A stretch of DNA of 13,174 bases from Spirochaetales bacterium. Lineage in GTDB: Bacteria > Spirochaetota > Spirochaetia > SZUA-6 > DRHE01. Of this stretch, positions 7,896-12,432 are shown in pieces. The stretch is taken from NCBI GenBank assembly GCA_023136785.1, contig JAGLQP010000016.1:1-13174 (forward strand), given 5' to 3'. Numbering within the stretch: the stretch's first letter is position 1; each line of letters opens with the position of its first letter. The notes below the pieces were generated by a model that had not been told where the DNA came from, made no database searches, and saw only the letters and a program-made list of their open reading frames with translations. Position numbers and translations under genes: made by a program.

Positions 7896-8573
7896 ATGAT
7901 AGAAAGATTAAAAGTAGGTCCCATGGAGACCAACTGCTACATCTACTCCAACGGTAAAAAAGAATGCATCGTCATCGATCCCGGCGGCAGTGAGTTAAGG
8001 ATCGTGTCCAGCATAAATATGCTGAAGATGATTCCGGCCGGTATCGCACTGACCCATGGGCATTTTGACCACACCGCCTCTGCGGGAAAACTAAAGAATT
8101 TTTACGGTAAAGAGGGGATAGATATTCCTATCGCCATCCATAAGGCGGATAAAAATTTCCTTGGTAAAAAAGCGGAAAAAACCAATCGGGAGACCCTGGT
8201 AGATCTCGGCTTGCCGGACCCGGACGAGTTTCTGGACTTTTTCTCCGATCTTCCCGAGCCGGATCTAATTCTCAAAGAAGGGGATACAGTTTTCAACACG
8301 AATCTTGTGGTACTGGAAACGCCTGGACACACAAAAGGGAGCATCTGCCTGTACAGCGAGAAAGACAGTCTTGTGTTTTCCGGGGACAGTTTGTTCTTTA
8401 TGGGCATCGGTAGAACAGATCTGCCCGGAGGCGATGAGAAAACCCTCCTCGATGTTGTCCGTAGTAAGATCCTGACCCTGCCGCCGGAAACCCGGGTATT
8501 TCCCGGTCACGGACTGGACACAACAATCGAGAGAGAAATCAAGGGCAATCCGTTTTTTCGCTTTGCCCATTAG
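7896..8573 (+). CDS. Metallo-beta-lactamase fold hydrolase, glyoxalase II-like
   Basis: This is a 225-aa single-domain MBL protein. The metal-binding set is complete: THGHFDH (H54, H56, D58, H59), H145 in ETPGHTKGS, D164 in SGDSLF and H205 in FPGHG, so two metal ions can be bound. The N-terminal METNCYIYS and IDPGG, together with GRTDLPGGD, match the short YcbL/GloB-like thioesterase group. The likely reaction is hydrolysis of a thioester such as S-lactoylglutathione or a related bacillithiol or CoA adduct; the true substrate is unknown. The C-terminal substrate domain of full glyoxalase II is absent. No good Shine-Dalgarno precedes the ATG. The start is chosen because family homology begins at MIERLKVGPMETN. 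It is divergent from the membrane protein gene (91-base gap) and ends 12 bases from the next opposing gene. Confidence 0.9.
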   Translation: MIERLKVGPMETNCYIYSNGKKECIVIDPGGSELRIVSSINMLKMIPAGIALTHGHFDHTASAGKLKNFYGKEGIDIPIAIHKADKNFLGKKAEKTNRETLVDLGLPDPDEFLDFFSDLPEPDLILKEGDTVFNTNLVVLETPGHTKGSICLYSEKDSLVFSGDSLFFMGIGRTDLPGGDEKTLLDVVRSKILTLPPETRVFPGHGLDTTIEREIKGNPFFRFAH

Positions 8574-8585
8574 GTAGGCGGGGCA

Positions 8586-8841
8586 CTACACCCCACAGGG
8601 TAAATCTTCCCCTTCCCCATGCTCGAGGAGTATTCCCTTGATGTGGGGATGATGAAACACCCTCTCCAATCCGCATTGCGGGCAGGGTTCCTCCATATAT
8701 ACAGTATCCACGATAATCTCATGTAGGTCTTCAAGCTCCGCGGGTTTGAGCAGATAGAAGCTCTGATGCACTCCCGCGAGGTTGGAAAACATCCTCTGCA
8801 ATGAGTTGCTTGTTCGCCGGGTAGATGTAGGATTTTTTCAC
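8586..8841 (-). pseudogene. Small unknown protein with a CPxCG motif, apparently frameshifted
   Basis: The C-terminal part is open from about 8801 and ends GGV-TAG at 8586. It reads SNLAGVHQSFYLLKPAELED, then HEIIVDTVYMEEPCPQCGLE. There is no good start in that frame: a stop sits just upstream and only a TTG is available. In the neighbouring frame, a GTG at 8841-8839 begins MKKSYIYPANKQLIAEDV and then loses sense after the run of four A (8786-8789 on the plus strand). Deleting one base of that run joins the two into an 84-residue protein. The PCPQCG pair could be half of a zinc site. I do not recognise the family. The GTG lies 23 bases after the stop of the upstream gene (8865), so it is probably the third gene of the dksA-like operon. 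Confidence 0.5.
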
Positions 8842-8864
8842 GGATGGAAACAGTATGTAACGGC

Positions 8865-9248
8865 TCAGGCGACCAGGTCAATCAACATGCCCGTTTCCGG
8901 GTAATTTCCGCCGAAGGAGGAAGGAAACTGCAGCAGTTGACCGCGGAGCCGGCTCTGGAGCTTGCTGATCAGCGGATCGATAGATTCAGGGTTCAACTCT
9001 CGTAGCTCTTCGGGACCGGGAACCTCTTCCCGACAACGGAGGAGTCTGTCGATTAGATTGTCCAGAACACGGAGCCTGAAGATGGGCGCCCCCCCGTCCT
9101 GTGCCGGTACTCCTTGGATGTGTTTGAAACGGGCATAAACGGCGTGAGCTGGATTTACCGGCACGGTGATGCGGCCGCCCTGCATGTTTTGAATGCGGAT
9201 AATATTGAGAAAAAAACCGGGTTGTGTGGAAGAGACGTTCAGAACCAT
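8865..9248 (-). CDS. Conserved-looking small protein of unknown function
   Basis: This is a 127-aa soluble protein starting MVLNVSSTQPGFFLNIIRIQ and ending PETGMLIDLVA. It has a central stretch with VNPAHAVYARFKHIQGVP and an amphipathic helix around VLDNLIDRLLRC. There is no signal peptide or membrane span. I do not recognise the family. The start at 9248 has the Shine-Dalgarno GAAGGGGT, but this lies inside the 3' arm of a strong hairpin (9250-9299). It follows the dksA-like gene by 60 bases on the same strand and probably shares its transcript. Composition and frame are clean. Confidence 0.7.
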   Translation of the reverse strand: MVLNVSSTQPGFFLNIIRIQNMQGGRITVPVNPAHAVYARFKHIQGVPAQDGGAPIFRLRVLDNLIDRLLRCREEVPGPEELRELNPESIDPLISKLQSRLRGQLLQFPSSFGGNYPETGMLIDLVA

Positions 9249-9249
9249 T

Positions 9250-9299
9250 ATCGACCCCTTCTACCTATTCCTAGTATCGGATAACTAGAGAGGGTCGAT
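9250..9299 (-). promoter_or_regulatory. RNA hairpin sequestering the Shine-Dalgarno of the 8865-9248 gene
   Basis: In the minus-strand transcript, AUCGACCCUCUCU (9299-9287) can pair with AGAAGGGGUCGAU (9262-9250). The 13 positions give 11 Watson-Crick pairs, one G-U and one C-A mismatch around a 24-base loop. The 3' arm contains the whole ribosome binding site and ends one base before the AUG (9248). No U-run follows, so it is not a normal terminator. A smaller alternative hairpin (CTAGT/ACTAG, 9271-9288) lies mostly within the loop. The element sits between the dksA-like stop (9309) and the next start, as a translational control element would. Confidence 0.6.
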
Positions 9300-9308
9300 T
9301 AGATGCTT

Positions 9309-9665
9309 CTATCGGTTGCGGCGTTCCTCAGAAGATTTACAGTCGATGCAGAGGATCGCGTATGGTATGGCCTGCAGTCGTTCCTGCGGGATTTTCTTGC
9401 CGCAGCTCATGCAAACCCCATAGTGCCCGTTTTCGATTCTTCCCAGAGCCGAATCGACGAGCTGCAGTCTCTTGATCTCCTGGGAGCCAAGAACCTCTAA
9501 AATCCGTATGTCGATATCATCAGCGGCGATATCGGCGAGATCCTTCGCTTCCATATCATCGACGATCTCTTGAAATTCACCGCTTTCAGAAACGAGCTGA
9601 TTCAAGATCTGCTCTTTGACCTCAAGCAGCTTCTCTTTCATCGCCTTTTTAAAACCAGTGCTCAT
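9309..9665 (-). CDS. DksA/TraR-family zinc-finger protein
   Basis: This 118-aa protein is built like a short DksA. It has a coiled-coil hairpin (residues about 5-75) whose tip carries DLADIA (42-47), matching the DxxDxA motif that reaches into the RNA polymerase secondary channel. A C-terminal four-cysteine zinc finger follows (C85, C88, C106, C109; CMSCGKKIP and CIDC). DksA proteins act with ppGpp to adjust transcription of stable RNA and amino-acid genes during starvation. With all four cysteines it is the zinc-binding type. It is first in a minus-strand operon with two unknown small genes and is divergent from infA across the 9755-10710 insertion. The promoter is at 9706-9734. True DksA versus a DksA-like paralogue cannot be decided here. 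Confidence 0.88.
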   Translation of the reverse strand: MSTGFKKAMKEKLLEVKEQILNQLVSESGEFQEIVDDMEAKDLADIAADDIDIRILEVLGSQEIKRLQLVDSALGRIENGHYGVCMSCGKKIPQERLQAIPYAILCIDCKSSEERRNR

Positions 9666-9705
9666 TCCCGCCTCTTCGGTCGATAGGGTCTTTTAAAGGT
9701 AGATG

Positions 9706-9734
9706 AATATGAACCAAAACAAAAAATTTGTCAA
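9706..9734 (-). promoter_or_regulatory. Promoter of the dksA-like gene
   Basis: Minus strand: perfect -35 TTGACA (9734-9729), 17-base AT-rich spacer, -10 CATATT (9711-9706). Transcription would start near 9699, about 35 bases before the ATG at 9665. It lies 20 bases from the left inverted-repeat arm of the insertion, so the promoter itself is intact. Confidence 0.55.
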
Positions 9735-9754
9735 CCATTTTCGCCTACGTTGTC

Positions 9755-9787
9755 GGGAAAACGCATATGGGAACCACCAGCTGGATA
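9755..9787 (+). repeat. Left arm of 33-bp terminal inverted repeat
   Basis: It begins GGGAAAACGCATATGGG and ends CCAGCTGGATA. It differs from the reverse complement of the right arm only at arm positions 4, 13 and 27. The arm contains the small palindrome CCAGCTGG. Confidence 0.8.
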
Positions 9788-9796
9788 GCCCTATAA

Positions 9797-9952
9797 GTGG
9801 TGGGCGGACGCTCACGCGCCGTTCGGGATGTAAACTTCAACAGGTCTTCCCGGCGTTTCTCGCGGGGAGCTGCGTTCGATTGGGGGAACCGGGTCACCCG
9901 GCGCGGGTACTACGGAACATACTTCGTTGGAATTCGCAGGACGCTCGCGAAG
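9797..9952 (+). pseudogene. Fragment resembling the C-terminus of an FGE/SUMF1-type (formylglycine-generating enzyme-like) protein
   Basis: The translated stretch reads GGRSRAVRDVNFNRSSRRFS, then RGAAFDWGNRVTRRGYYGTY and FVGIRRTLAK. This resembles the end of the SUMF1 domain, usually RVxRGGSW, then RxAxR, then Rx5GFRxVR. Here the GGS is replaced by DVN and GFR by GIR. No N-terminal part of the domain exists in the window. The piece begins just inside the left inverted-repeat arm and has no start signal. SUMF1-like proteins include sulfatase-activating enzymes and, in Treponema, diversity-generating retroelement targets. The match is by eye and may be wrong. Confidence 0.4.
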
Positions 9953-10078
9953 TACTGTTTCGTTGTTCAAATGCAACTTACTATAGAAGATGTTAGGTTT
10001 TCAAGCTTGCAGGATGTATCGTGGTAAACTATTCTGAAAATGGCCAAAGCAAAGTAATCCTGGAGGAATAGTAGGCAA

Positions 10079-10106
10079 ATGCCCCAGTTGGCGCTATGCG
10101 CCGCAG
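10079..10106 (+). repeat. 28-bp palindrome-bearing direct repeat, copy 1
   Basis: It matches the copy at 10620-10647 in 22 of 28 positions. The right half is the hairpin GGCGC-TAT-GCGCC followed by GCAG; the loop bases differ between copies while the stem is identical. It lies just before the DUF4143 fragment. Confidence 0.6.
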
Positions 10107-10113
10107 GCTCACT

Positions 10114-10347
10114 TTAGGCGTATACCTGACCGATGAATCGTTTCCGGTAGGAAAGGTCACCCTTCTGGACCTGTATCCCATGAGTTTCGAGGAATTCCTT
10201 GCGGGCGTCGGGAACCAGCGCCTGGTGGAATTACTCCGTTCCTATGTTTTTTCACATCCCCTGCCCCAAACAGCCCATGATCGATCATGGGACTTGTGGA
10301 AACGTTACCTCATCGTCGGAAGTTTACCGGAAGTTGTTGACCTTTAG
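10114..10347 (+). pseudogene. Fragment of a DUF4143/AAA_14-type ATPase
   Basis: The stretch LGVYLTDESFPVGKVTLLDL, YPMSFEEFLAGVGNQRLVEL and later WKRYLIVGSLPEVVD matches the region of these proteins around the LYPxSFxEF motif, between the ATPase core and the DUF4143 domain. Walker A and B and the C-terminal half are missing. The family is common in mobile accessory islands; its function is poorly defined. The frame begins immediately after the first 28-bp repeat and is cut at about 10330-10347, where a toxin gene fragment takes over in another frame. Confidence 0.72.
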
Positions 10348-10514
10348 CGGAAAGGGTCATGGGAAAAGCGGTGGATTTCGATTCATTCACTATTGGGATA
10401 AACAAACAGAAACGATTTTTCATGCTGTATGTTTATCCTAAGAATAAACAAGAGGATCTAACGCCGCAGCAATGTAAATTGCTTAGTCGCCTTGTACGGG
10501 AGGAATTCAAATGA
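10328..10514 (+). pseudogene. 3' fragment of a HigB/RelE-type toxin gene, with an additional frameshift
   Basis: The sequence RKLLTFSGKGHGKSGGFRFI, then HYWDKQTETIF, is the central part of RelE/HigB-like mRNA interferases (RKxRxxGxGKSGGxR). After the run of five T (10416-10420) the frame moves by one and continues MLYVYPKNKQEDLTPQQCKL to REEFK and a TGA at 10512-10514. Deleting one T would restore a continuous C-terminal half. The N-terminal half, roughly 50-60 residues, is absent: the DUF4143 fragment abuts it. The stop overlaps the antitoxin ATG in an ATGA, which is usual for this toxin-antitoxin arrangement. Confidence 0.75.
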
Positions 10515-10612
10515 ATACAAAAGACTTCGATAAACTTACACAAAGCATAAAACAGGCCGGAAAGATTAAACGCGGAAACATGAAGGCATCTAGAATAACG
10601 AACATAAACTAA
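10511..10612 (+). pseudogene. Truncated antitoxin N-terminus (HigA/NadS-like)
   Basis: The 33-codon frame starts MNTKDFDKLTQSIKQAGKIK and ends ASRITNIN before a TAA. It corresponds to the N-terminal arm of xre-type antitoxins paired with HigB/RelE toxins, which normally continue into a helix-turn-helix DNA-binding domain (IRxxxGLSQxxFA). That domain is completely missing. The ATG overlaps the toxin stop and GGAGGAATTC lies upstream, so translation could still start. Without its domain the peptide is unlikely to bind DNA. Confidence 0.65.
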
Positions 10613-10619
10613 GCAGAGC

Positions 10620-10647
10620 ATGCAGCAGACGGCGCTTCGCGCCGCAG
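10620..10647 (+). repeat. 28-bp palindrome-bearing direct repeat, copy 2
   Basis: It is 541 bases downstream of copy 1, in the same orientation. The hairpin is CGGCGC-TTC-GCGCCG followed by CAG. It lies directly after the truncated antitoxin stop, so the two copies bracket the DUF4143/toxin/antitoxin mosaic. Confidence 0.6.
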
Positions 10648-10677
10648 CTGATGAAGACAGTCCTTGCTTGCCCCATC

Positions 10678-10710
10678 TATCCACCTGGTGGTTCCCAAAT
10701 GCGTTTGCCC
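10678..10710 (-). repeat. Right arm of 33-bp terminal inverted repeat
   Basis: Its reverse complement begins GGGCAAACGCATTTGGG and ends CCAGGTGGATA, matching the left arm in 30 of 33 positions. It includes the palindrome CCACC-T-GGTGG (10681-10691). It ends 21 bases before the infA -35 box. Confidence 0.8.
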
Positions 10711-10731
10711 AGCTTTATCCGTACTTCTACC

Positions 10732-10761
10732 TTGACAAAGGAACTTCTCCTATCCTACACT
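10732..10761 (+). promoter_or_regulatory. Promoter of infA
   Basis: A perfect -35 TTGACA (10732-10737), an 18-base spacer and TACACT (10756-10761). The start would fall near 10768, only about 15 bases before the TTG start, leaving a very short leader holding just the Shine-Dalgarno AAGGAG (10770-10775). Confidence 0.5.
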
Positions 10762-10782
10762 CCGGAGGCAAGGAGCGAGTGC

Positions 10783-11001
10783 TTGGCAAAAGAAGAAGCG
10801 ATCGAAGTAGAAGGAGTGGTCAAGGAATCCCTGCCCAACACGATGTTTCGTGTCGAGATCAAGAACGGGCATGTGATCCTGGCCCATCTTTCCGGAAAGA
10901 TGAGGAAACACTACATCCGAATCGTTCCAGGTGACAAGGTAAAAGTGGCCCTATCCCCCTACGATCTCACCCGGGGACGCATTATCTACAGAGAACGGTA
11001 A
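10783..11001 (+). CDS. infA: Translation initiation factor IF-1
   Basis: IF-1 binds the ribosomal A site on the 30S subunit with IF-2 and IF-3 during initiation. The protein is exactly the usual 72 residues: an S1-like OB fold with [20 protein letters not shown], then [20 protein letters not shown] and [20 protein letters not shown]. The start is TTG at 10783, chosen because it gives the standard length and has AAGGAG seven bases upstream. The frame remains open further upstream, but that part shows no homology. The gene stands alone, not in a ribosomal protein operon. It is divergent from the dksA-like gene across the 9755-10710 element and ends 15 bases from the opposing Smr gene. Confidence 0.96.
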
Positions 11002-11016
11002 GTACTGTCTGAAAAA

Positions 11017-11436
11017 TTATCTCATCGAGGCGCGGATAACCACCCAGGTGGCACCGCGGCCCCCGTGCTTTCGTTTTGCCGAAGCGAATGCACCGGTGTA
11101 TGGACATTTCTCCAAATACCTGCGCACCACACCCTGTAGTACCGGCTCGCCTTGGGAGTGATTTCCCTTGCCATGAACGATCAAGACCTTCCTGACCGCT
11201 CTGCTTCGAGCCTGGTATATGAACCGTTCGAGAGCCTGCTCCGCTTCCCGGCTGTTCATACCGTGCAGATCCAAAACCGCTTGAACTTCCATCGACTCTA
11301 TATCCTGCCTGGGTCCTTCCATAGCATCCTGCCGACCCGCCTCTTTATCCGGCGGGTAGCGGGATATCAGCTCATTCATAGATCTGCTTCTTCCCCGTTT
11401 CTTCTCCCAGGCATCTAGAATGTCATTAAAATCCAT
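11017..11436 (-). CDS. Small Smr-domain protein
   Basis: This 139-aa protein has a polar N-terminal arm of about 50 residues and one Smr domain (53-136). It shows LDLHGMNSREAEQALERFIY, then VRKVLIVHGKGNHS (81-94), GVVRRYLEK and HGGRGATWVVI (124-134). Smr domains, as in the MutS2 C-terminus and stand-alone proteins, are nucleic-acid endonuclease modules; LDLHG and HGKG are their conserved motifs. Stand-alone Smr proteins such as SmrB can cleave mRNA on collided ribosomes, but which role applies here is unknown. It is the last gene of the minus-strand Bat-like operon, 15 bases after the BatE-like stop, with a modest AAGG upstream of its ATG. Confidence 0.9.
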   Translation of the reverse strand: MDFNDILDAWEKKRGRSRSMNELISRYPPDKEAGRQDAMEGPRQDIESMEVQAVLDLHGMNSREAEQALERFIYQARSRAVRKVLIVHGKGNHSQGEPVLQGVVRRYLEKCPYTGAFASAKRKHGGRGATWVVIRASMR

Positions 11437-11451
11437 AGGCCTTACTCACTT

Positions 11452-12432
11452 TCAATCAAGAAGAATAGTGTTCGTTTGTACCCATCCCATAATCTCGGAT
11501 GGGGTTTCGACGAGATAGTAGTCACCGAATTGTCCCCTGATCCAAAGACTCGTTCCGGAAGGCAGTTCAAACCAGGATTTCGAATCCTCCTCAGGGACCC
11601 TGTTCAGGTCGCTTTCTTCGGAGATCACCACACCCACCGATCGAGATTCCGAGCGGAGCCGTCCCACAAAAAAGGTGAAGGAACCTAGAGCCGCTATCGT
11701 CAGAAGCACAAAAGAAATGAGGAACTGAACCCGCTTTGTACGTACAACAAAGGCGGCCATGATCAACGACGCATTCGCAAACAGAAGGAGCAACAGGTAG
11801 GCGAGGTCCGGATGGACCGGAAAGGGGGCAGCCACTTGCCCGACAAGACCGTATCCTTGCTCCAGACTCTGCAAGACTCCCCTTCCTTGAGGATCCCCCG
11901 GCTTTTCCCGCAAACTCTGGCGTAGATAATGGATGGCGTATCCCTGCTCCCCCAGGTAATGGGAGAGGATTCCAAGGTTATAGAGAAGCGCAGGATTACA
12001 GGACAAAGCCTGTTCAGCCTGTCTGTAGAGCTCGATCGCCTCGGTATAGTGTCCGGCTTGAAAGCTCCGCTGCGCTTCCCGAACCGAAATGTAGGGATCC
12101 TGCTCCGAGGAAGCCATTAGAAGTAGGAGGAAGAAAAAGGGGAGTATGTTCTTAGCTTTTCGGGTAACCAGGGCAAAGAGAAAAAACAGCATACCGGGAA
12201 GCAAGAACAGCAGGTTCAGAGGATTACTGTAGTGGCGCGTGCAGTTGGATTTCTTGATCTCGTTCAGTTCTTTCAGAGGCAGATCCTGAGGATCGAGGGA
12301 AGCAGAGGCGGGGGGGGGATGCTCCGACGCGCTGCGCTGATCGTTCTGGGAGTATCCGGGGGTAGGCAGAAGCAAAAGCAGGACCGCTACCAATCCTGCT
12401 CGTACGTATCCTGCGCAGGCTCCGACACCCAT
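11452..12432 (-). CDS. BatE-like membrane protein with TPR and bacterial SH3 domains
   Basis: This is a 326-aa protein. A signal or anchor lies at residues 10-28 (ending PTPGYSQ), with membrane spans at about 71-90 and 96-107. Two TPR-like repeats follow at about 113-180 (AQRSFQAGHYTEAIELYRQA, then NPALLYNLGILSHYLGEQGY). Two further spans lie at 209-230 and 236-257, and an SH3-like beta domain at about 265-326 (GTSLWIRGQFGDYYLVETPS, GWVQTNTILLD). This layout matches BatE of the Bacteroides aerotolerance (bat) clusters, where VWA and TPR proteins form an envelope complex linked to stress survival. The ATG at 12432 lies 46 bases inside the upstream TPR gene but has a good AGGGAGGA about ten bases before it, so translation is probably coupled. 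The biochemical role is unknown. Confidence 0.75.
   Translation of the reverse strand: MGVGACAGYVRAGLVAVLLLLLPTPGYSQNDQRSASEHPPPASASLDPQDLPLKELNEIKKSNCTRHYSNPLNLLFLLPGMLFFLFALVTRKAKNILPFFFLLLLMASSEQDPYISVREAQRSFQAGHYTEAIELYRQAEQALSCNPALLYNLGILSHYLGEQGYAIHYLRQSLREKPGDPQGRGVLQSLEQGYGLVGQVAAPFPVHPDLAYLLLLLFANASLIMAAFVVRTKRVQFLISFVLLTIAALGSFTFFVGRLRSESRSVGVVISEESDLNRVPEEDSKSWFELPSGTSLWIRGQFGDYYLVETPSEIMGWVQTNTILLD

Follow-up and report, generated by a model that had tools for sequence, protein, structure and literature searches.

The window analysed here is a stretch of 13,174 bp of contig JAGLQP010000016.1 from a Spirochaetales bacterium (GCA_023136785.1). We label this genome G000; its assembly is 82% complete and consists of 745 contigs. 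A dksA/traR-like gene and the divergently oriented infA gene are separated in the window by a pair of inverted arms and the DNA between them (Table 1). Both genes are intact and the promoter-like regions outside the arms are common to G002, a genome of the same genus, which agrees with what a sequence-only reading of this stretch had stated about the surroundings of the arms. A dksA relative was present in 25 of 26 genomes of the order, G000 included. The infA gene was found close upstream of dksA in 13 of 26 other loci, in a search with an infA query that was one frame off, and was located by its start sequence in all six relatives examined. The starts of the two genes are 190 bp apart in G002 versus 1117 bp in the window, so that an empty dksA-infA region, which had been suggested as something to look for in relatives, is present within the genus. 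In an alignment read by eye the window and G002 agreed on the left to about position 9741 and on the right from about 10727, with both promoter-like regions kept, and the gap between these flanks in G002 was filled by about 60 bp of unrelated sequence without arms. Judged from this alignment, the window has gained about 0.93-0.99 kb relative to G002. The sequence of G001, also of the same genus, stops 93 bases upstream of dksA and carries little information on the gap.

Table 1. Features of the dksA-infA region, in window coordinates.
Feature	Position	Strand	Evidence
dksA/traR-like zinc-finger gene, intact left neighbour	9309..9665	-	PF01258, E 5.8e-13
Left terminal inverted repeat (TIR), probable ISAs1-type end, outermost bases degenerate (TCGGG for CAGGG)	9753..9788	+	31/36 to right arm; outer 18 bases 13/18 to G006 IS end A
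Segment without identified origin; GC 0.59 to 9970, then 0.38	9789..10075		
Internal fragment of AAA_14/DUF4143 ATPase gene, both gene ends missing, frame break, stop near 10347	10076..10353	+	88% DNA identity to G006 gene
Probable C-terminal fragment of RelE-type toxin gene	10358..10514	+	Weak PF06296 match, E 0.031, below cut-off; about 70% DNA identity to G003 locus L007
N-terminal fragment of partner antitoxin gene, 33-codon frame	10511..10612	+	L007 alignment; homology to G003 ends near 10584
Short segment without identified origin, GGCGCTTCGCGCC hairpin	10613..10676		Fold z -1.68 (+ strand), -2.11 (- strand) for 10600-10670
Right terminal inverted repeat, probable ISAs1-type end (CTGGGCAAACGCATTT for CAGGGCAAACGCATTT)	10677..10712	-	Outer 18 bases 16/18 to G006 IS end A; 1 mismatch to TIR pattern
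infA promoter-like TTGACA-18-TACACT, outside right arm	10732..10761	+	Conserved with G002; read by eye
infA, translation initiation factor IF-1, TTG start, intact right neighbour	10783..11001	+	PF01176, E 1.3e-27

The arms had been described as lying at 9755-9787 and 10678-10710 with 30 of 33 matching bases. We found them to be one position longer (9755-9788 and 10677-10710), with 31 of 34 positions identical in inverted orientation. When 8400-11800 was shuffled 20 times with its dinucleotide composition kept, the inverted 34-base match reached 22-26 at best, and the arm pair is real and beyond chance. The extent of the unit, about 9753-10712 (0.96 kb), is suggested by homology to the ISAs1-type ends described below.

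Between the arms, gene fragments lie next to segments of no identified source. The segment at 9789-10075 had no match by DNA in 60 relatives, nor in Pfam, plasmids or the protein database, and its best match in PHROGs had an E-value of 0.31. The relative of the ATPase fragment is an intact gene of 447 aa in G006, a genome of a different genus. For the toxin and antitoxin fragments the relatives were found at locus L007 of G003, where the downstream ORF has an HTH_3 domain and the ORF tested for the toxin showed no Pfam match. The antitoxin fragment keeps the first two dozen codons in its G003-homologous part, and by these alignments the stretch of about 10358-10584 is probably a cut toxin-antitoxin pair; the related region in G003 appears interrupted itself. 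The ATPase piece and the toxin-antitoxin piece abut without a linker. No Rfam match was found for the hairpin segment at 10613-10676, and a DNA search of the G000 assembly (82% complete) revealed no second copy of the cargo. The statement that everything inside the arms is broken accessory-gene material could be demonstrated for about 10076-10584 only; the stretches 9789-10075 and 10585-10676 matched no identified source, in searches some of which covered just one of the two. An inverted repeat within the toxin fragment (10386-10448) folds well as single-stranded DNA, with a z-score of -3.45 for 10380-10455.

No transposase was recognised inside the unit among selected reading frames compared with Pfam and PHROGs, and a tblastn search of the unit with ORFs of three ISAs1-type loci gave a best E-value of 0.2 (the ORF taken from L113, the longest of that locus, is apparently not a transposase). 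The absence of a transposase noted from the letters alone is supported by both kinds of search, and a remnant of an ISAs1 transposase was rejected as a candidate after tblastn gave nothing significant. An attC or integron reading, prompted by a 28-bp direct repeat (D1) and a GCGC hairpin, was likewise dropped; the repeat copy at 10079 is not an attC site because it aligned inside the intact ATPase gene of G006.

Evidence on the nature of the arms came from contig ends. A second model placed the outer half of the arm motif at contig ends in G006 and in G000, and the assignment to ISAs1 rests on reading these insertion sequence (IS) contig ends, whose model E-values were weak (0.10-0.50). Three contig ends in G006 run CAGGGCAAACGCATTTAGCAAAAAG... 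and three run CAGGGCAAACGCATTTAAGCCTGAA..., with CAGGGCAAACGCATTT at all six. Outside CAGGGC the six ends carry unrelated sequence, and they break off 126-127 bases inside, as would a repeat collapsed at k = 127. Two of the nine possible left/right pairings share 10/10 flanking bases directly outside CAGGGC and the other seven at most 5/10; these perfect 10-base flanks therefore represent a target duplication, by which two insertions could be re-paired (C90/C121 and C30/C133). The multicopy ISAs1-type element of G006 has one end type on contigs C6, C90 and C30 and the other on C60, C121 and C133. Two G006 IS ends match each other in inverted orientation over 17/18 bases and then diverge. Inner type B of G006 encodes, up to a stop, a peptide with 56% identity to the C-terminus of the L111 transposase (E 3e-13) and 55% identity to that of the L112 transposase (E 1e-8); the latter is assigned to ISAs1 by NCBIfam (NF033564, E 4e-128), and the peptide itself matched no NCBIfam model. 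Among the reference loci, both L111 and L113 (PF13808 loci) have CAGGGC termini, with target duplications of 10 and 9 bases, respectively, and for L112 one terminus only, TAGGGCAATCGCATCTA, was seen.

In G000, contigs C47 and C281 carry CAGGGCA(A/G)ACGCAT(T/A)T at 41 and 43 bases from the contig end, and their flanks did not match each other by eye. The TIR pattern with up to 3 mismatches gave 12 matches in this genome versus 10 for the reversed control; therefore only the matches with 0-1 mismatch (C47, C281 and the right arm of the unit) are above chance. The left arm and a solo arm copy on contig C257 match this pattern only at 3 mismatches. Compared with the terminal CAGGG, the right arm reads CTGGGC and the left arm TCGGGA. 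At the window itself the candidate target duplication matched in 2/10 bases, and boundary shifts of up to 3 gave 5/8 at best. PF13808 had no match in the G000 assembly and one below the cut-off in G006. The inner half of the arm, GG(A/G)AACCACC, is common to the solo copies and absent from the assembled IS ends, and no autonomous element with this inner half turned up; the direct parent element therefore was not found. From these comparisons the arms are probably ISAs1-type ends. A mobilising element can stay hidden in a draft assembly because IS bodies break contigs; the contig ends nevertheless give access to the IS termini and their target duplications, by which an apparently orphan inverted repeat becomes a probable ISAs1-type relic.

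A search for the arm sequence in the genome and its relatives, as the sequence-only reading had proposed, revealed solo relatives. Besides the two arms, G000 has a third, weaker copy by pattern and model searches (C257:3893-3926), which lies in another divergent intergenic region and matches the two arms in 26/36 and 28/36 positions, versus 31/36 between the arms. The searches also gave two further solo relatives in genomes of the same family (G004:C387 and G006:C133). None of these three has an inverted partner above chance level. No exact second copy of their flanks as a partner target duplication was present in the stretches examined; for G006:C133, four places with 1 mismatch were found in 20 kb. 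The G001 ortholog of the gene at C257 has no DeoR gene beside it in its locus, and the intergenic region is unaligned beyond the gene start, so that G001 does not inform on whether the C257 copy is an insertion. Longer exact patterns of the arms matched nothing in either genome_contigs or viral_contigs. With GCAAACGCATTTGRRAACCAC as an exact pattern, two stretches of genome_contigs matched, both from Spirochaetales MAGs and fitting G004:C387 and G006:C133. A single viral match of the shorter arm pattern was taken as chance because it lies inside a coding frame and continues differently. The solo arm-like ends on G004:C387 (L052 and L080) and G006:C133 (L051) are near toxin-antitoxin-type genes (HEPN + nucleotidyltransferase; HicA + HicB).

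Other single ends were found at G004:C381 (E 0.002), G022:C57 (E 0.004) and G003:C136 (E 0.03), and the arm pattern with 3 mismatches gave 8 further scattered matches across the order. Weak model matches were read at 14 of 29 places for the first arm model and at 17 of 27 places for the second. Four of five weak arm-model matches in G087 (C27, C35, C50) are one repeat, two of them at contig ends, and differ from the arms outside the shared stretch. Further loci with paired arms and variable cargo, which the sequence-only reading had proposed to look for, did not appear: among 26 genomes of the order, the window holds the only locus with paired arms at the thresholds used.

The unit resembles the ISAs1 family (NF033564) in that the outer 16 bases of the right arm are 15/16 identical to the terminus CAGGGCAAACGCATTT, inverted and with the CAGGG-equivalent side outward, and in that contig ends of the same genome carry this terminus. 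It differs in having neither a recognised transposase nor a target duplication (9-10 bp at the loci examined), and in its longer inverted match, 31/36 compared with 17/18 followed by divergence in the G006 IS ends. According to the excerpts of PMC3913671, mobile insertion cassettes (mic) consist of two inverted repeats and lack a transposase; a target duplication usually accompanies them, and in their first description they were mobilised in trans by IS231A. The unit is similar in its two inverted repeats, the lack of a transposase and the unrelated cargo between them; the mic genes named in these excerpts are intact functions (qnrD, adp) and a duplication is usual, whereas the unit holds broken cargo and shows no duplication. 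As for an IS able to act in trans, ISAs1-type ends exist in the same genome but its assembly has no PF13808 match. TIMEs are described in the excerpts of PMC4133298 as Tn3-derived and forming mosaic non-autonomous elements, and among its references is a paper on a mosaic element that contains an IS of the ISAs1 family. With MITEs and TIMEs (PMC4133298) the unit shares being non-autonomous and TIR-bounded, and TIMEs also form mosaics; TIMEs derive from Tn3-family ends, and the unit occurs as one paired locus that holds gene fragments. The counts in its own genome (82% complete, 745 contigs) are one paired locus and one solo relative, not multiple copies with matched TIRs as in a MITE family. 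Among the open-licence papers listed for ISAs1 and MITEs, gene-fragment-carrying non-autonomous elements and mobile insertion cassettes, none describes the unit in its title or in the opening of its abstract, and excerpts of PMC5756416 and PMC3281130 contain nothing on it. As to type, the earlier suggestion of a possibly undescribed element is improbable, since the terminus of the right arm matches an ISAs1-type insertion sequence.

We consider it moderately probable that the unit is a degenerate transposase-less element with TIRs of the ISAs1-family type, MITE- or mobile-insertion-cassette-like, and now probably an old and immobile relic. A pair of ISAs1-type ends would have come to lie in the promoter gap between dksA and infA, where it may have carried or flanked horizontally acquired accessory DNA encoding a DUF4143 ATPase and a toxin-antitoxin pair. 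Deletions would then have removed parts of this DNA, so that the remaining fragments lie end to end. Movement, if it ever took place, might have depended on an ISAs1 transposase acting in trans and cutting at CAGGGC; we infer this mobilisation in trans, the order of events and the present immobility. What had been proposed as a non-autonomous transposable unit is partly supported, by the TIR-like ends, an insert that is absent in G002 and the lack of a recognised transposase; a new mechanism is not supported, and a target duplication is missing.

It is possible, albeit rather unlikely, that each arm is instead the end of its own ISAs1-type insertion, and that the two insertions, oppositely oriented, flanked an accessory island, lost their bodies by deletion and never formed one transposing unit. 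Such a history would fit the lack of a common target duplication, the cargo pieces that abut without a linker and the existence of solo arm-like ends, which were found at C257 and, close to toxin-antitoxin-type genes, at G004:C387 and G006:C133. The two arms nevertheless resemble each other more closely (31/36) than they resemble C257 (26/36 and 28/36), and the CAGGGC-equivalent side is outward in both, as in one unit. The locus is probably either a transposase-less mic/MITE-like relic or a set of two separate relics.

Plant Pack-type elements carry gene fragments between TIRs, as the unit does. A bacterial counterpart would be a non-autonomous family with ISAs1 ends that takes in pieces of accessory genes (ATPase, toxin-antitoxin) and is moved by a trans-acting transposase, and such fragment capture, if true, would matter more. 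In its favour, the TIRs enclose two gene regions that are unrelated, truncated on either side and joined without a linker. We nevertheless regard this reading as very improbable, given one paired-arm locus in 26 genomes, no donor copy in the G000 assembly by DNA search and no target duplication at the window. Unlike Pack-type elements the unit has no multicopy family, and nothing indicates the active capture of gene fragments that had been proposed. Just as improbable is that the arms serve as an invertible DNA switch, or as a regulatory operator with the palindromic CCACCAGGTGG core of the right arm, between divergent promoters. Such a role would suit the location between divergent genes and the solo copy at C257 in another divergent intergenic region; points against it are the broken genes that form the cargo, arms that are imperfect at 91% identity, the absence of the motif from the orthologous gap in G002, and the outer bases of the right arm, which match an IS terminus that has target duplications.
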